64,000 bases of DNA from Fibrobacter succinogenes (GCA_902756345.1 CACVQR010000002.1:1-64000); one strand, 5' to 3'; numbered from the stretch's first letter, positions 800 through 8,790 are shown. Made by a program: numbers and translations. Notes: a model not told the origin generated them from the letters alone.

Positions 800-3700
800 T
801 TACATGAAATCTTCTTTCATGTAGAATGCTGAAATGGACATATTTTCGATTAAAAAATCTAAAAGATCAATAAACATAGATTTCTTTTGATTATTTCTTA
901 TAAAATCTGATCTAAAGTTATGTGCGTACATTTTCATTGCGTATTCTAGTGAAATAATGGCATTATCGTCATAGTATCTTGAATTTTTAGACTGAATGCA
1001 TTTGTGTAAATTTTCAATATTCTGTGGCAGGTTTTGTGGAATTAGTCTGTAAAGTAACGAACTAAGCGGAAAAAGTAGGCAATCTGTTTGATTAAGACCA
1101 TTGCATAAATCGCTGATGAATGCGTTGATTTTTTCATTTTTAAAAAGGATGTTCCATTCTTTTGACGTCCTTATTCCACCAAACAAATATGTGTAAAATA
1201 TTTCTTTTTTGTAGCATTCAATTTTGACTGCATTGTGGTGACTAATAATATGAGGCTTAAAGACATTCCATATAACCCAAAATTTGTCTGGTTGCTGTAG
1301 CTCGCATTCTTCGTAAATAAGATTTTTTAAGAAATCACTGTAAAATTCTGACGCATCGTAATTTTTTACAATCGGTTCGAAGATAGATACAAAATGGTTT
1401 GATGGCAATCGCATTGCCAAATTTGCCATGGCTCTGGGGTAATCATATTCATAATGATTGTAGGATTCTTTGAATAATTCGAAAGACTTTTTAACAGCTG
1501 ATTTAATTAATGAAGTGTCAATGGAAACTAGACCAAGTAAATATAATATGGGGATAAAATCCTTTATGGTATATTCGTTCCACGTCCAATCAGAGGGTAA
1601 ACTTTGCTTATAGTCTAAAAATGATTCGATTGTAGATTCGTTTTGTTTAAAAAAACATAAGTACGGACCGTCATCTTTTGAATGGAATGCTTGTCGAGAA
1701 AAAAGGAACGTATTCCAAGAATGCGTCAAGAATATAAAACATTGGACTAATTGAATCGAAATATCGCGATTAACGGAATGCAGATTGGCTAACGCTTTTC
1801 GAGAATTTATTTTATATAATTCTCCTTCATCTCCATATCTAAATAATGTGCATAGTAATATGTATATCCATTCATCGGCGATATTGTCGTCAAAGATGGA
1901 AAGATAGCCTAATGCTTGGATTGCGTTATTTGTTCCATCTCCAACTTGGTATCTGTAATCCAAATAGAATGGTCTTGTCGAATACCTTTTTATTACATCA
2001 CGGAAAAATTGTTTGTCACCGAGAGACAAAGCATTCCAATTATCTCTAGCCAAACAACATATAGCTAATGTTATAATGTCATTATAATGATAAATGGGTA
2101 TATAATAGGTTCCTTTTTCTTGAAGTTCCTGTTCAATGGTCTTTATTTCTTCACAAACAATGGATAAGTCTGAATATTTTGAATTTTTTAATGGTATTTG
2201 ATTCCATGTTTTATTCGCCCATTCGCTTAATTCGGAATGCATGAAAAGTGTTGAACAATTGGCCTCCGATTGCTTTGTGTAAGCTTTTGCTCGGTCATCA
2301 AATTCTGTTTGCGATTGCATAAAAACATTGTTGTTATCAACTTTGATTGCTATTTTATTTTTCCTGGAATCTATTTTTTGTAAAATAGCATGCCATAGTT
2401 CATTAGAATCGTTTTCTGCATAATAAGAGTCAATTAGAGTTATTATTTCTTTTTTGAAATCATTTGGAACTGTTTTGTATTCTAGAATTTGATATGACAG
2501 GCATAAGTCGACTAAGGAATTTTTCCTATGAGGTAATGCGTTAGATTTCTTTCGTTCATTGAATTGCATAGGGAATCTATCTTTATCTGAATATTGTATA
2601 GGAATATTTTCTCTATTTGAACGATACGTGTCTAACAAAAAACATTCTTTGTTTCTAAACAATTCAAAAGCAATGTCATAAAATTTATCGGGATATGCCA
2701 TGACCACGCTGCTAACTACTGCAGTTAGAGAAATTGATTTAGTATTTTCTAGAATATAATAAAGATCTTTTTTTATGAGTTCGCAATTTTCATCAACATT
2801 TCTTAATAAATAGTATTCTAAAGCCATATGTAAGCATATTAGAACATCCGGTTTTACACGACCTCCAATCCCACGGTACATTTCCCATAGATCAATATCA
2901 GTAATTTGTTGTATTATTGAGGATTTGAATTTAAAATTGAGAATTTGTGATTCCTTTCCGAAATCTGACGTGTGATATGATTCTGCACAAAAGTTAACAA
3001 AACGGATAATCCAGTTTATCGTTTTATTTGGATTTGTGTAAAGAAGTGAAAGAAATGGCGTCTGCATTGCGCTAACGGCATTATAAGAATGAGACCATGA
3101 ATCGTCAAGTCCATAGAAATAGTCTGCATCATAATGATGCCAGTTTTCGTCATCTTCTTTCTTTATCCAAAAATGTTGGGCGATTTCTAATATTTCGTCA
3201 AAATGCGTTTTAAATAAAGCCCCTGGTGTTGGTGATTTAAGAATATATTCAGCGAAAGAATCGTCAATTCTATTTATTGAATGGCGTTTGCTATTTATAA
3301 TGCGGTCTAAAACATTCTTGATGTTAACACATTCTTCACCTGATCCGTTGGATATTATTTCAAAGATTTTCTCCTCATTTTTTATACTTATGTTGATTTT
3401 GTCATTTGTTATATCGTCGTATATTTTTAGCGCGATTTTGTCAACAACTGCAGTTTCTTTCCCAGTTTTATATGAGGAATTCCAATTTTTCATTAAAGGA
3501 ATAGTATATTCTATCCAGCCATCTTCTAAAGAATTAAAATTATCATAGATGAATTTAAAGTAGTAAAACCACCCACTTCCAATAGGTTTTGTAAAATAAA
3601 TTTCCACATTTTCAGACGTGCTGGGAATTCCAAATAGTTTACACATCTCGAAATCAAGTATTCGACACCTTACAAATAGTATTTTAGAAATTCTTTTCAA

Positions 3701-5317
3701 AAAATTATTTCTAGAATCTAACAATTCATTATGGTATTGATCAAATAAAAAATGTCCTTTTTTTGACAGTAAAATACCACAAATGATTTCGTCTGTATAT
3801 AAATTAGGCTCTATTATATTATTGCATTCTAAGAAGCTGTTTATAATCGAAGGGTTTTCATCGATGCTTTCAAGAAACCATTTTCTAAAGGCTTTTACAA
3901 ATGGATATTTGCAAGGAAAATTGTAAAAAAAGCATTTGACGCCCGTATTGCAAAACCTCAGATTTATAAATTTTTCTAAAGCAAGGTCTTCGTATATATC
4001 TTGTGAAATGTAATAACCATTTTGATCTTGCGCAATGATATTCTGTTCTTGTAAAAAATGGCAACAGGATGGATTGATTTTTTCTAGATATACATGTCCT
4101 TCTTTTAAATTATTAACAACTAGTTCAATGAATTCTGAACCATAGTTTTTTAAAGAATCTTTCCAAAGGCAGTCTTTAAAATTATTGAAGGAACCTGAAT
4201 TGGTTGAATGAATATATTTGTTTAAGTAAAATGGTGTTTTAATAATTTTTTGAAGTCTTAAATCGGACGGAATTTCTTTTTTGAAATTAGAAAGAATATT
4301 GATTAAAGATTCGTCACTGATTTCACCGACATCAATATTTTCTATATCAAAATTTTGCCCAAACTCATTTAGAAAACGAGTTACTGTATCACAATATGTT
4401 TTACGTGTTGTTATAATTATTTTCCAGCCATTTTGTGTGAATGTTTTTAGAATGTTAAAAATAAGTGTGGAATCAGGTAGATAAATGAGTTTCTCTGCAG
4501 AATCTAGAATGAAAAATTTTCTTTTTTCATTTGAGAATATTTGAACGTAGTTCTGCAAATGCCTAAAGAGTTGCTGAAGGTCGTTTGATGGATTTTCTAA
4601 TTCAACAGCTTTTATTATTATAAATGGAACATTGTCTTTTTCTAAATATTCCTTTATTATAGCAGATTTCCCAACACCGGCCTCGCCAGAAATCACGATG
4701 AGGTCTTTTCCTGAGTTGTTTATGGAACTAAAAAAGGGGGTTCGGTCTATTTTGTATTTTAATCCATTATATGATATTGTATTCTTTATACTTTGCAAAA
4801 TTGAATTGTTATGAAACTGCACATTTTTATGAATGTCTTCAAGAATGCATTTTTGTTCAAAGAAAAATGACGCAATATCTGCGTTTTGAATGCATACGAA
4901 ATCAGAATCAAAAAAGGATTTCGTATGCCACTCAATTTTGATGTTTAATTTTTTTGCTAAGGATTCAGTAGTTATTTTGCCTTTGGGAACTTTTCCATTT
5001 GATTGAGCCCATTCTGAATTCGTATAAAAAACTAAGATGGTCAGATTTGGATAATTCTTGCGTATATCTTTTAAAGTTTTTTCAATTTTCTTGGATTCTT
5101 TTGATAGCGTATTTGAATAATATTTCGCTTGCCAACCGATAACGTCGCTCCCATAATTTATGGTGTCGGTTTCGATACCTGATTGATTCAAGTATGCGGG
5201 GAGCCCCTCGGGTTTATTATACTTTCGACAAAAAAGAAGATAGCACAGCCATTCAAACGCCTTTTCTTTGCCATTGGTAAACTTGGCGTTAAAAATATCC
5301 CAGTTTGCTTGAATCAT
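800..5317 (-). CDS. Avs4-like STAND NTPase with N-terminal Mrr-type nuclease domain, putative antiphage sensor
   Basis: This is a 1505-residue protein. Residues 1-150 look like a PD-(D/E)xK (Mrr-like) nuclease: a helix containing E22, an acidic strand around E49-D51, and the strand IGWQAKYY with Q63-x-K65. Residues about 200-480 form a STAND-type ATPase: Walker A GEAGVGKS at 211-218, Walker B FFILDSAE at 268-275 and an arginine-containing TTRK near 303. The remaining 1000 residues have no obvious motif and look helical, as expected for a target-sensing repeat region. Order and length match AVAST/Avs4 proteins, which cleave DNA after binding a phage protein. The start is supported by AAAGGA nine bases upstream. 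The gene is far more AT-rich than the housekeeping genes, suggesting transfer. A hairpin (802-822) overlaps the stop codon. Target and activity are inferred, not shown. Confidence 0.72.
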   Translation of the reverse strand: MIQANWDIFNAKFTNGKEKAFEWLCYLLFCRKYNKPEGLPAYLNQSGIETDTINYGSDVIGWQAKYYSNTLSKESKKIEKTLKDIRKNYPNLTILVFYTNSEWAQSNGKVPKGKITTESLAKKLNIKIEWHTKSFFDSDFVCIQNADIASFFFEQKCILEDIHKNVQFHNNSILQSIKNTISYNGLKYKIDRTPFFSSINNSGKDLIVISGEAGVGKSAIIKEYLEKDNVPFIIIKAVELENPSNDLQQLFRHLQNYVQIFSNEKRKFFILDSAEKLIYLPDSTLIFNILKTFTQNGWKIIITTRKTYCDTVTRFLNEFGQNFDIENIDVGEISDESLINILSNFKKEIPSDLRLQKIIKTPFYLNKYIHSTNSGSFNNFKDCLWKDSLKNYGSEFIELVVNNLKEGHVYLEKINPSCCHFLQEQNIIAQDQNGYYISQDIYEDLALEKFINLRFCNTGVKCFFYNFPCKYPFVKAFRKWFLESIDENPSIINSFLECNNIIEPNLYTDEIICGILLSKKGHFLFDQYHNELLDSRNNFLKRISKILFVRCRILDFEMCKLFGIPSTSENVEIYFTKPIGSGWFYYFKFIYDNFNSLEDGWIEYTIPLMKNWNSSYKTGKETAVVDKIALKIYDDITNDKINISIKNEEKIFEIISNGSGEECVNIKNVLDRIINSKRHSINRIDDSFAEYILKSPTPGALFKTHFDEILEIAQHFWIKKEDDENWHHYDADYFYGLDDSWSHSYNAVSAMQTPFLSLLYTNPNKTINWIIRFVNFCAESYHTSDFGKESQILNFKFKSSIIQQITDIDLWEMYRGIGGRVKPDVLICLHMALEYYLLRNVDENCELIKKDLYYILENTKSISLTAVVSSVVMAYPDKFYDIAFELFRNKECFLLDTYRSNRENIPIQYSDKDRFPMQFNERKKSNALPHRKNSLVDLCLSYQILEYKTVPNDFKKEIITLIDSYYAENDSNELWHAILQKIDSRKNKIAIKVDNNNVFMQSQTEFDDRAKAYTKQSEANCSTLFMHSELSEWANKTWNQIPLKNSKYSDLSIVCEEIKTIEQELQEKGTYYIPIYHYNDIITLAICCLARDNWNALSLGDKQFFRDVIKRYSTRPFYLDYRYQVGDGTNNAIQALGYLSIFDDNIADEWIYILLCTLFRYGDEGELYKINSRKALANLHSVNRDISIQLVQCFIFLTHSWNTFLFSRQAFHSKDDGPYLCFFKQNESTIESFLDYKQSLPSDWTWNEYTIKDFIPILYLLGLVSIDTSLIKSAVKKSFELFKESYNHYEYDYPRAMANLAMRLPSNHFVSIFEPIVKNYDASEFYSDFLKNLIYEECELQQPDKFWVIWNVFKPHIISHHNAVKIECYKKEIFYTYLFGGIRTSKEWNILFKNEKINAFISDLCNGLNQTDCLLFPLSSLLYRLIPQNLPQNIENLHKCIQSKNSRYYDDNAIISLEYAMKMYAHNFRSDFIRNNQKKSMFIDLLDFLIENMSISAFYMKEDFM

Positions 5318-5440
5318 GTTGCGTATCCTTTGGGGAATTCAGAAATCAAATAAGGTGTTCCCATAATAATAATCAAAAAAGTTTAGTTTGGGTGATTTTA
5401 TTGCGGAATTGCTTAATGATTGTGTGGCTTTTTTGCGTTA

Positions 5441-5569
5441 GGGATCGAAGCCCGAAGGGCCGGGAGGGCCGCTGGTATCCCGCGCTCGGCCCTCTAGGTG
5501 GGGAAGCCGTGGGGTGACGCCACGGCTTCGTGCCGCGAGAGCCCGCCCCTGCGCAGCAGGGGACGCCCG
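5441..5569. repeat. structured GC-rich intergenic repeat, copy 1
   Basis: GC-rich element beginning GATCGAAGCCCGAAGGGCCG and ending GCAGCAGGGGACGCCCG. It shares two long blocks with 6459-6581: GGGAGGGCCGCTGGT-TCCCGCGCTCGGCCCT and GCCGCGAGAGCCCGCCCCTGCGCAGCAGGG. The middle differs; here it is a GCCGTGG...CCACGGC hairpin. Both copies have the same orientation and bracket the DUF3800 module. Internal complementarity (GGGCCGGGAGGGCC, GCCGTGG/CCACGGC) suggests a folded RNA or cruciform. Confidence 0.75.
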
Positions 5570-5584: not shown

Positions 5585-6262
5585 TTAATTCCACTCCTTC
5601 TTTTTTAGGGCTTTCAAATAGTTCTGCTTCAAATCTCTCCTGTTGCCGAAGAATGCCATTTCTGACTTTGAGAAAAGGTTGCTTTCAAGTTTCAGGTTTA
5701 TAAGTTCCATCGTGCAAATAAAGTCTGCGACTTGGAATAATCTGTAATCGGATGGCATCACTTTTCGAAAAATCGGATTGGGCAACAGAGCGTTAAATAC
5801 GGACGATAAAAGCTTGCTTACTTCAACTTGTCCGTTGTCGTAGTAAATTTTGACATCGTCAAAAGTGAGAAATTCATCATAATGACTTCTTAAAAATGAA
5901 GAAATTTGCTTTGAAAGTTTGCCTGTTGCTTCTACAGAATCTTTGATGTGCTTTTTTTCGATAGAGAAGCATTTATATTGAATCCCTGCAGAACGAATAA
6001 ACGCCATCATTTTGTTGAAAATACGTCTCCGTTCAACGATACTCATGTCTTTGTAAATTTCTTCCTTGCGGATAATTGGGCCGGTATGGATGCAAAGATT
6101 ATCTAATCCGAGATATGACAATTCCGTGTCAAGACGGTGGACATTTTCCTGAATGTCGATATCCTGCTTATGGAACACCATTGTTATTATGTAGTACGGA
6201 GAATGTGGGCTGTATTCGCCAAAGTCCCCCGATTCATCGATGAAAACGCTTAGTTCCTTCAA
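5585..6262 (-). CDS. DUF3800-domain protein
   Basis: A protein of about 225 residues with the DUF3800 hallmark at its N-terminus, VFIDESGDFG (acidic residues like an RNase H-fold metal site), then YYIITMVF and a C-terminal DYRLFQVADFICTMELI block whose QVADF also fits the family. The function of DUF3800 is unsettled; it often occurs in mobile or defence regions and some members lie behind conserved structured RNAs. I place the start at a TTG (6262) because GGAGAG lies four bases upstream and the protein then begins (M)KELSVFIDESG, as is usual for the family. A longer reading to 6331 would translate through a terminator hairpin and is unlikely. It is preceded by its own promoter and leader RNA, and both sides carry copies of a GC-rich repeat. 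Confidence 0.8.
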   Translation of the reverse strand: MKELSVFIDESGDFGEYSPHSPYYIITMVFHKQDIDIQENVHRLDTELSYLGLDNLCIHTGPIIRKEEIYKDMSIVERRRIFNKMMAFIRSAGIQYKCFSIEKKHIKDSVEATGKLSKQISSFLRSHYDEFLTFDDVKIYYDNGQVEVSKLLSSVFNALLPNPIFRKVMPSDYRLFQVADFICTMELINLKLESNLFSKSEMAFFGNRRDLKQNYLKALKKKEWN

Positions 6263-6273
6263 GATTCTCTCCA

Positions 6274-6330
6274 CAAAAAAAGCGAGGAACTTCCTCGCCA
6301 GAGATGGACCTGGGTCTTTCGACCAGCCCA
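6274..6330 (-). ncRNA. candidate DUF3800 leader RNA: GAAA-loop hairpin plus intrinsic terminator
   Basis: Reading the minus strand from about 6330: a first hairpin CTGGTC-GAAA-GACCCAG with a GNRA tetraloop and one bulged C, a short linker, then a perfect hairpin GCGAGGAAGTTCCTCGC followed by seven T. This looks like a complete transcript of about 55 nt, or an attenuator, sitting exactly between a strong promoter (6336-6364) and the Shine-Dalgarno site of the DUF3800 gene (6267-6272). Structured RNA motifs upstream of DUF3800 genes have been reported by comparative genomics; whether this one belongs to a described class cannot be decided here. Confidence 0.6.
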
Positions 6331-6335
6331 ATAAG

Positions 6336-6364: not shown

Positions 6365-6458
6365 TAGGTTGAACGAATAAAGATGATCATTTTACGTCCG
6401 CGTTAGGCCTCCAGCCACTTGCAGCTTTGCTGCTTGGTGGCTATGGTCCCCTTTAGGG

Positions 6459-6581
6459 GAGATCGAAGCCCGTAGGGCCGGGAGGGCCGCTGGTGTCCCG
6501 CGCTCGGCCCTCAGGTCCTTCGGCTTCGCTCAGGATAAACTCGGCCGCGAGAGCCCGCCCCTGCGCAGCAGGGAACGCCCG
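6459..6581. repeat. structured GC-rich intergenic repeat, copy 2
   Basis: Second copy of the element at 5441-5569, same orientation. It shares GATCGAAGCCCG-AGGGCCGG at the start and GCCGCGAGAGCCCGCCC through GCAGCAGGG-ACGCCCG at the end. The central part here is CAGGTCCTTCGGCTTCGCTC, different from copy 1. With copy 1 it brackets the DUF3800 gene and its RNA as a direct repeat about 1 kb apart. The rest of 6365-6691 holds a hairpin-prone stretch (about 6403-6455) and the AT-rich upstream region of the next gene; no gene is seen. Confidence 0.75.
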
Positions 6582-6691: not shown

Positions 6692-8053
6692 ATGCGGTAC
6701 GAATCGGTAATCAAGGCTGGCGAATCCTCTACAGTGGAATTCAAATCCTCTTTCAATCAAGAGGTTATCGAGGCTGTGGGCGCGTTTGCCAACAAGCACG
6801 GAGGTGTCATCTTTGTTGGGCTGAAGTCGTGCGATAGAGTACTTGGTTTGGAACTTGCCGAGGAATCCTTACAGAAATGGCTTAACGAAATCAAGAGTAA
6901 GACGGAGCCTGTGCAGGTCCCCGATGTTGAAGTCGTAAAGTACAAAGGGAAGACGCTTGTTGCGATAAATGTCAAGGAAAGCCCAATAAAGCCGGTGGCG
7001 GTGCAGGGACGCTACTTTATTCGGCACGAGAACAGTGTTCATGCGATGAGCCCGATTGAGATTGGGGATTGCACGTTGCGCACTCAGAATTCTAGCTGGG
7101 ATTTTGTACTTGACGATTCCGGTTCGATGGACGACATCTCCCTCAAAAAAGTCGTGCAGAGTATTCGGCGTATCAACGAGCGAGGGTATCATATCTCCAA
7201 GGATCCCCTTGATTTTTTGCGCAAGAATCGATTGCTGCGGGAAGGAAAGCTTACTTTTGCTGCCGAAATGCTTTTCGCAAAGGATTGGCATATAAACACG
7301 GCTGTGCAGATGGGCTTTTTCCAGTCCCCGACAATAATCAAGGACAGGGGCGAAGCCCATGGCGATTTGGTGAGTCAGGTAGAAGAAATTTATGAGTTCG
7401 TGAAAAAGCACATCAATTGTCAGGTCGTCATAAGCGACAAGCTTGAAAATGATCTTGTTTGGGATTATCCGCTAAAGGCCATCAGGGAAATAATCTTGAA
7501 CATGATTGTTCACAGAGATTATCGTTCGGCATCGGAATCGTGCGTCAAAATTTTTGATGATCGTATAGAGTTTTTCAATCCGGGAAAACTGATGGATGGG
7601 ATGACTCCTGACGATTTGAATTCGGGAAATTACTTGTCCACTCTTCGGAATAAGGCGATTGCAAACCACTTCAATATGTTGGGCGAGATTGAAAAGTACG
7701 GTTCCGGTGTTACCCGCGTTATAGGGCTGTTCCAAGAGGCCGGTTTACCTGTTCCCAGGATTGAGGAAATTGGTTGCGGAATACGTGTGACCGTGTGGAA
7801 AGCTGTTGACGGGGATACAGAAAAGGATACAGAAAAAGATACAGAAAAAGATACAGAAAATATTACAGAAAATCAAAGGAAGATTCTTTCCGCTATAGAG
7901 CAAAACCCCTCTGCGTCGCAGGAGGGAATTGCACAGGTTGTTGGGATTAACCGCGCCAATGTCGCTAAAAACTTGAAAAAACTTGTTGAAATGGGGCTTG
8001 TCAAACGTATTGGTCCCGACAGGGGCGGTCACTGGGAAGTCGTCAAGAAATAG
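6692..8053 (+). CDS. AlbA_2/HATPase_c_4-type ATP-binding regulator with C-terminal winged helix
   Basis: This 453-residue protein has three parts. Residues 1-120 are an AlbA_2 (Schlafen-like, divergent AAA-4) domain with ESSTVEFKSSF and ANKHGGVIFVGL. Residues about 240-370 are a HATPase_c_4 domain with IREIILNMIVHRDYRS and GSGVTRVI. The C-terminal 60 residues are a winged helix (ITENQRKILSAIEQNP through MGLVKRIGP). Between ATPase and winged helix lies the tetrapeptide repeat (DTEK)3-DTEN-ITEN, encoded by a 12-bp tandem repeat. Such proteins are usually annotated as ATP-binding putative transcriptional regulators and are frequent in accessory islands; the ligand and regulated genes are unknown. 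The ATG at 6692 has no clear ribosome binding site. The gene follows the DUF3800 module and diverges from it. Confidence 0.8.
   Translation: MRYESVIKAGESSTVEFKSSFNQEVIEAVGAFANKHGGVIFVGLKSCDRVLGLELAEESLQKWLNEIKSKTEPVQVPDVEVVKYKGKTLVAINVKESPIKPVAVQGRYFIRHENSVHAMSPIEIGDCTLRTQNSSWDFVLDDSGSMDDISLKKVVQSIRRINERGYHISKDPLDFLRKNRLLREGKLTFAAEMLFAKDWHINTAVQMGFFQSPTIIKDRGEAHGDLVSQVEEIYEFVKKHINCQVVISDKLENDLVWDYPLKAIREIILNMIVHRDYRSASESCVKIFDDRIEFFNPGKLMDGMTPDDLNSGNYLSTLRNKAIANHFNMLGEIEKYGSGVTRVIGLFQEAGLPVPRIEEIGCGIRVTVWKAVDGDTEKDTEKDTEKDTENITENQRKILSAIEQNPSASQEGIAQVVGINRANVAKNLKKLVEMGLVKRIGPDRGGHWEVVKK
7814..7873 (+). repeat. 12-bp in-frame tandem repeat (GATACAGAAAAR)
   Basis: Five consecutive 12-bp units, GATACAGAAAAG, then GATACAGAAAAA twice, GATACAGAAAAT and ATTACAGAAAAT. 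They encode DTEK/DTEN/ITEN in the linker of the AlbA_2 regulator. The unit is a multiple of three, so copy-number change would alter linker length without a frameshift. Confidence 0.95.
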
Positions 8054-8106
8054 CTTTTATAATCTAGGCGTTTTGAAAGAGGCCGGTAAGTTGCTTTAAA
8101 ATGTAG

Positions 8107-8645
8107 CTAGTACGTCAGCCCGTAGCCGTACGGGTATAATCCTTTTTTGCCGTCACCGACGTTGATCGGGATTTGCTTGGCGTCTTTGGGCCAGGTGTGG
8201 GGGGAGTTTGCCGGTGGGCTTTACCTTGCCGTAGAGAACGTCTGCGACGCCTGCGCCTTCGCTGCCGGGGAGCCATGCCACGACAAAGGCGTCGGCGGTC
8301 TTGATGAACGAGGTGATGGGGTGCGGGCGGCCGGTATTGTTGGCGTGGCTGCCGGTTACAAAAACTTTGCTGTTGGTATCCAGCGGAAGAACCTTGTCGT
8401 TCTTGAGGATGACGAGACTTTTTTGAACGGCTTCGCGGGCGATTTGGCGGTGTTCGTTGCTGCCGATGTTCTTGGTGACGCCTACATAGGCGGCGGGACC
8501 ATAGCCATGTCGAGGCCTGCGTTAATGGATGCGCGAATGGCGTCTTCCCAGTCGGCAATCACGTAGCCGTCAAAGGCGAGTTCCGTCTTGAGAACGCCTG
8601 TGAGCAGGGCAGAATCGATATGTCATCTGGGCGATCATGTCGTCC
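8107..8645 (-). pseudogene. decayed GH3 beta-glucosidase, C-terminal pieces
   Basis: Several minus-strand frames together spell a glycoside hydrolase family 3 enzyme. LLTGVLKTELAFDGYVIADW carries the GH3 nucleophile region (the D of ADW) and runs on to INAGLDMAMVP. A large internal part is then missing. Next come IAREAVQKSLVILKN, KVFVTGSHANNTGRPHP and ADAFVVAWLPGSEGAGVADV, and finally, after one extra base in a run of C near 8197-8202, HTWPKDAKQIPINVGDG and LYPYGYGLTY with stop TAG at 8107-8109. At least two frame breaks, an in-frame stop after MAMVPPP and the deletion make it non-functional. It lies at the boundary between the accessory region and housekeeping genes. Confidence 0.85.
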
Positions 8646-8739
8646 ATGTGACGGGTGCATAATACCTTCCAAGGTAAATTTGCATTCAAAAGGTCTTTGG
8701 GTGAAAAAGAACTCGTGATTTCGCGTGTACATAAGAAAA

Positions 8740-8768
8740 CGGCCTTATTTCGCGAGGAAATAAGACCG
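8740..8768 (-). terminator. intrinsic terminator of icd
   Basis: Minus strand CGGTCTTATTTC-CTCGC-GAAATAAGGCCG followed by TTTTCTT: a 12-bp stem (one G-T pair) with a five-base loop, 22 bases past the icd stop codon. Confidence 0.85.
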
Positions 8769-8790
8769 AATTTCGTTTGTGGCGTGCGAA

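Follow-up and report, generated by a model that had tools for sequence, protein, structure and literature searches.

A divergent Avs4-like gene among repeat-bounded defence genes in Fibrobacter

The nuclease effectors of the Avs1-4 proteins cut DNA upon recognising terminase or portal (review, PMC12931631), and the title of the structure record for the E. coli Avs4 reads "Avs4 bound to phage PhiV-1 portal" (8DGF). Anti-phage genes are also carried as cassettes by chromosomal integrons (review, PMC12409362). Here, we describe a gene, termed avs4 below, that is compared with the first of these systems, and the surrounding array, which is compared with the second. Both lie in the window, the whole 64-kb stretch of DNA analysed, which starts with base 1 of contig C2 in a 99% complete genome of 3.36 Mb.

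The avs4 gene and its relatives

The minus strand of the window holds, at 800-5317, a single ATG-start open-reading frame of 1505 aa without an internal stop. A preliminary description of this DNA had pointed to an AT-rich coding sequence and a protein of three parts, and both points are borne out. The G+C content of the frame is 0.311, compared to 0.507 for the window, and its GC3 of 0.28 lies below the ~ 0.55-0.77 of the chromosomal genes past 8.7 kb, so that its base composition is foreign-looking; the protein divides into a nuclease domain, a STAND ATPase and a helical sensor, as follows.

800..5317, minus strand: avs4-like gene, nuclease plus STAND ATPase plus helical-repeat sensor, 1505 aa (PADLOC, PDB, open frame)
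4823..5317, minus strand: N-terminal nuclease domain, residues 1-165, with E49/Q63/K65 (alignment to Avs4 proteins)
3938..4750, minus strand: STAND ATPase and winged-helix region, residues about 190-460 (Pfam AAA_22 and aligned motifs)
4664..4687, minus strand: Walker A GEAGVGKS, residues 211-218 (alignment)
3998..4003, minus strand: MHD-like position, residues 439-440, reading QD (alignment; HD in 9/9 homologues)
803..3937, minus strand: helical sensor at the C terminus, residues 461-1505 (match of 506-1505 to 8dgf chain A, 540-1585)

The resemblance to Avs proteins proposed in the preliminary description was found over the full length of the protein, and in the PADLOC and PDB searches Avs4 alone matched at that length. 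The PADLOC Avs4 model, which has no curated cut-off, was matched over positions 1-1569 of 1570 (E=5.4e-287), and the sole strong match in the PDB search was E. coli Avs4, 8dgf, over residues 1-1503 (E=2.4e-144). The NCBIfam Avs4 model was likewise matched end to end (1-1577 of 1579) with a score of 998.9 bits, which does not reach its curated equivalog cut-off of 1500 bits, and the protein is therefore classed as a divergent Avs4 homologue and not as a curated equivalog. In alignments, the nuclease residues E49, Q63, and K65 are invariant across five Avs4 proteins, and Walker A, Walker B (FILDSAEKL), and the ITTR stretch are all kept. The STAND region matched Pfam AAA_22 (E=5.8e-7), while no Pfam nuclease model matched the nuclease domain in the Pfam search. 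The order of nuclease, STAND ATPase, and sensor is that of E. coli Avs4, from which the protein differs in its low identity outside the nuclease, in its score below the NCBIfam cut-off, and in a glutamine at the MHD-like histidine. Judged from its sequence, the gene product is, with high confidence, a complete but very divergent Avs4 homologue (26-28% identity; 24-28% to canonical Avs4 outside the nuclease).

The sensor had been described as not obviously recognisable and its phage target as possibly new. Neither statement is supported, since residues 506-1505 alone match the Avs4 sensor (E=8.6e-69) and the sensor aligns over its full length with the portal-bound Avs4 structure. The sensor-only match rules out a new sensor with a new target as the default reading, and by analogy the phage portal would be the default target. 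Structure prediction, which the preliminary description had suggested as a check, ranked 8dgf first in Foldseek for both halves of the protein (E about 2e-28 and 1e-30) and added little beyond that ranking, as the models, built with only two relatives as alignment rows, were poor (pLDDT 54 and 56) and TM-scores were near 0.4.

Among 167 genomes of the host's phylum, only this genome gave a full-length avs4 match. One other contains a nuclease-only piece of 142 residues near a contig end (L002, bases 1501-1926), and the remaining matches are short and lie in the ATPase region. In L002, the Avs4-type nuclease, without ATPase or sensor, stands just after a gene that by eye resembles a DNA methyltransferase. 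Relatives that are full-length or share the sensor were found on E. coli and Salmonella plasmids, in Clostridia, in a cyanobacterium, and in Bacteroidota. Four Avs4-like proteins, from a Calothrix plasmid (L011), Haliscomenobacter (L010), Hymenobacter (L013), and Clostridia (L018), have the STAND and sensor parts in common with avs4, whereas their N-terminal parts do not align with its nuclease. These unrelated N-terminal parts point to effector swapping on one sensor. No Avs4 match was present among 50,697 phage records, and an IMG/VR contig of 9 kb carries one relative. A phage or plasmid vehicle was considered and rejected: in addition to the absence of Avs4 from the phage records, the core of the repeat described below was not found in viral contigs, nor the stretch of repeat and DUF3800 gene in plasmids.

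Proposed mechanism and alternative readings

By analogy with its relatives, the avs4 product would be an Avs4-type single-protein anti-phage receptor working by portal sensing and DNA cleavage, a reading that we hold to be likely. At rest, the ATPase would keep the receptor inactive. During infection, the C-terminal helical-repeat sensor would bind the folded portal protein of the phage, upon which the STAND ATPase would take up ATP and receptor proteins would assemble; the assembled N-terminal nuclease domains would then cleave DNA, leading to cell death or arrest and halting the infection. Portal binding, assembly, DNA cleavage, and cell death are all drawn from relatives, with ligand, assembly, and cleavage taken from the solved relative 8DGF and from the statement on Avs1-4 in PMC12931631.

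The intact motifs, the 1505 stop-free codons, the full-length homology, and the defence genes in related arrays favour this mechanism, while the low identity outside the nuclease, the 998.9 bits against a cut-off of 1500, Q439, and a weakly conserved C-terminal third count against it. Compared with E. coli Avs4, the nuclease is 41% identical; the value falls to about 27-29% across the ATPase and the initial part of the sensor, and to only 22-23% over the last 500 residues. When the canonical Avs4 proteins in the comparison are taken together, identity over these last ~ 500 residues is about 18-24%. A small tree built with FastTree, from which the nuclease was left out, gives the avs4 protein a longer branch than any other canonical Avs4 protein and has it branch off at the base of the Avs4-like proteins with other effectors, a position possibly due to long-branch attraction. 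The steep loss of identity and the tree position would both suit a receptor derived from Avs4, with effector and ATPase as in Avs4, whose sensor now recognises a different phage protein or the portals of one phage lineage. Such a shift seems unlikely to us, given that the sensor can be aligned from end to end with the portal-bound structure and that other Avs4 proteins are also most divergent in their C-terminal part.

At 38 alignment positions, the sequence departs from a residue that at least seven out of eight homologues share, and the most suggestive of these departures is residue 439, a Gln where 9/9 homologues have the His of an HD pair. We take this pair, at 439-440, to resemble the MHD motif known from STAND/NLR proteins. 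Autoinhibition of plant NLRs can be relieved by changes to the MHD His, and Gln in place of a His that helps to hold the off state in related ATPases could make the receptor a leaky or constitutively primed Avs4. An always-on toxic nuclease would be expected to be lost, however, and the residue's role in Avs4 is itself presumed by analogy; we regard a leaky receptor as less probable still than a shifted sensor. The same 38 departures, H439Q included, together with the transposase-like debris recognised by eye to the left of avs4, could also mark a horizontally acquired gene that is decaying or silent and has lost its function. The 1505-codon frame without a stop and the retained catalytic and ATP-binding residues argue against such decay, which we consider very improbable. 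The portal-sensing Avs4 mechanism is the reading retained here.

The repeat and the defence-gene arrays

Directly upstream of avs4 is the first of two copies of a GC-rich repeat of ~ 135 bp, which begins GCGTTAGG, ends GGGAACGCC, and contains several hairpins. The neighbouring features are given below.

5435..5569, plus strand: repeat A, structured element of ~ 135 bp with GCGTTAGG at its start, immediately upstream of avs4
5585..6331, minus strand: DUF3800 gene, cassette between repeats A and B (Pfam DUF3800, E=1.7e-8)
6284..6330, minus strand: DUF3800-XI RNA, RF02975, scoring 60.1 bits (gathering score 37.8), at the 5′ end of the DUF3800 frame
6400..6581, plus strand: repeat B, same element as A with a 5′ extension
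6692..8053, plus strand: Schlafen AlbA_2 / RecG-C-type gene, final unit ahead of the chromosomal flank (Pfam SLFN_AlbA_2, E=1.1e-18)

Past repeat B, the Schlafen AlbA_2 gene is followed by the chromosomal flank and isocitrate dehydrogenase, and the window also carries pectate lyase, pectinesterase, and cellobiosidase-like genes. A Fibrobacter host is plausible from these genes and from groups of related genomes that would suit Fibrobacterota. The contig ends to the left of avs4, on its downstream side, and no repeat was detected on that side up to the contig end. At 1-540 on the minus strand is a degraded transposase-like sequence, by eye an IS256-type remnant, which occurs once in the genome. 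What was guessed by eye to be a truncated FRG-type gene, at 556-726, had no Pfam match and is not claimed.

The repeat recurs a few kb apart within single contigs among 61 genomes of the host's genus (for example, loci L049-L057 and L090-L109). Its 24-base core was found in 29 of the 167 phylum genomes, all within the host's genus, where the repeats usually form arrays of one orientation with defence genes between them. All copies have the same orientation in 20 of the 22 genomes with at least two copies (log10 chance about -13, with orientations taken as independent), and the other two do not contradict this rule because each has one copy on each of two contigs. A dispersed intergenic repeat is unlikely, as copies cluster in one orientation and this genome has just two, both in the window. 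On an alignment of 19 copies, which omits a variant with a different central stem, a four-helix structure was paired in 98.1% of cells, with compensatory changes in 42 cells, and pairing reached 100% in the central 10-bp helix, where six pairs carried changes on both sides. The covariation score was 0.278, compared to 0.141 in shuffles, and was reached in 0 of 500, for copies that are related and with kinship uncorrected; sliding the helix partners abolished the signal. RNAalifold on a mixed alignment missed the central stem, and the named structure was instead counted on the 19 copies. Folded as DNA on their own, the two window copies were unremarkable (z -0.7 to -1.9). Taken together, this is strong evidence that the repeat is a covarying structured element.

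In 12 array regions, 94 open-reading frames lie between repeats, including AbiLi- and AriA-type ATPases, GajA-type proteins beside a UvrD helicase, a SIR2-domain protein, members of the Abi_alpha, AbiU, RloB, RhuM, and YhcG families, and PADLOC candidates, along with some sugar-nucleotide and transposase genes. A PADLOC scan gave 325 families for the 94 array proteins and 14 for 28 non-array proteins of the window, a rough control, as protein numbers and ATPase content differ. Spacers measure 794-11,179 bp (median 2,518) and include multi-gene units; 74 frames lie on the strand of the repeat and 18 on the opposite strand. The AT-rich stretch with avs4 has defence-type neighbours, and the DUF3800 and AlbA_2 genes both recur in such arrays.

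Units 97-99% identical occur in different neighbourhoods, namely the DUF3800 cassette in genomes G021, G031, and G086 and the AlbA_2 unit, in copies 98-99% identical, in arrays of G096, G071, and G040. The isocitrate dehydrogenase flank is 91.6% identical between the window and G021, and in the G021 array at this flank the DUF3800 cassette adjoins the flank, repeat B and the AlbA_2 unit being absent. To the left of the repeat common to both, the two differ, with avs4 in the window and a different sequence in G021, and the switch falls at GCGTTAGG. From this upstream junction alone, we infer that avs4 is a full cassette at the array end. In G021, a 700-codon gene separates the array flank from isocitrate dehydrogenase; at 8104-8790, the window has only pieces of matching DNA, probably a broken gene. 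The DUF3800 gene was ruled out as a partner of avs4, as the same cassette is found in arrays of genomes without avs4. It recurs together with the DUF3800-XI RNA as a unit in several arrays. An RNase H fold has been predicted for a DUF3800 domain (PMC10910872), and gene and RNA may be a defence unit of their own.

Like chromosomal integrons, these are arrays of exchangeable units, many of them anti-phage, with a repeated structured element in between, and the near-identical units and the G021 comparison show exchange between arrays. Unlike the attC site, which has RYYYAAC at one end, GTTRRRY at the other, and one long hairpin, the repeat, judged from its sequence, has a GTT start and an AAC end, the reverse of attC, and several hairpins; spacers are 0.8-11 kb long and genes lie on both strands. 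The integron integrase IntI (TIGR02249) was over cut-off in none of the 61 genomes. The missing attC layout and the lack of an IntI over cut-off rule out a canonical integron. Ten proteins close to the ends of three arrays included no recombinase, and of the tyrosine recombinases listed on array-bearing contigs none is within 20 kb of an array. We tentatively propose, as a possibility short of an even chance, that avs4 is cargo of an undescribed, genus-specific, integron-like system of defence cassettes in which the ~ 135-bp element, without IntI or attC layout, is the exchange site. Instead of a recombinase acting on the element, homologous recombination from one repeat to another would suffice. 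No paper describing the array was found in a literature search that was far from full.

Implications for the host's genus

The avs4 gene extends the Avs4 receptor into a phylum with no other full-length copy in 167 genomes, and Q439 would be a natural variant at a site expected to keep the receptor off. The array is of more value than avs4 itself. If the repeat is an exchange site, the host's genus would have its own way to stock and swap defence systems, the exchanged units would include ones larger than usual integron cassettes, and new defence genes could be found from their position alone.
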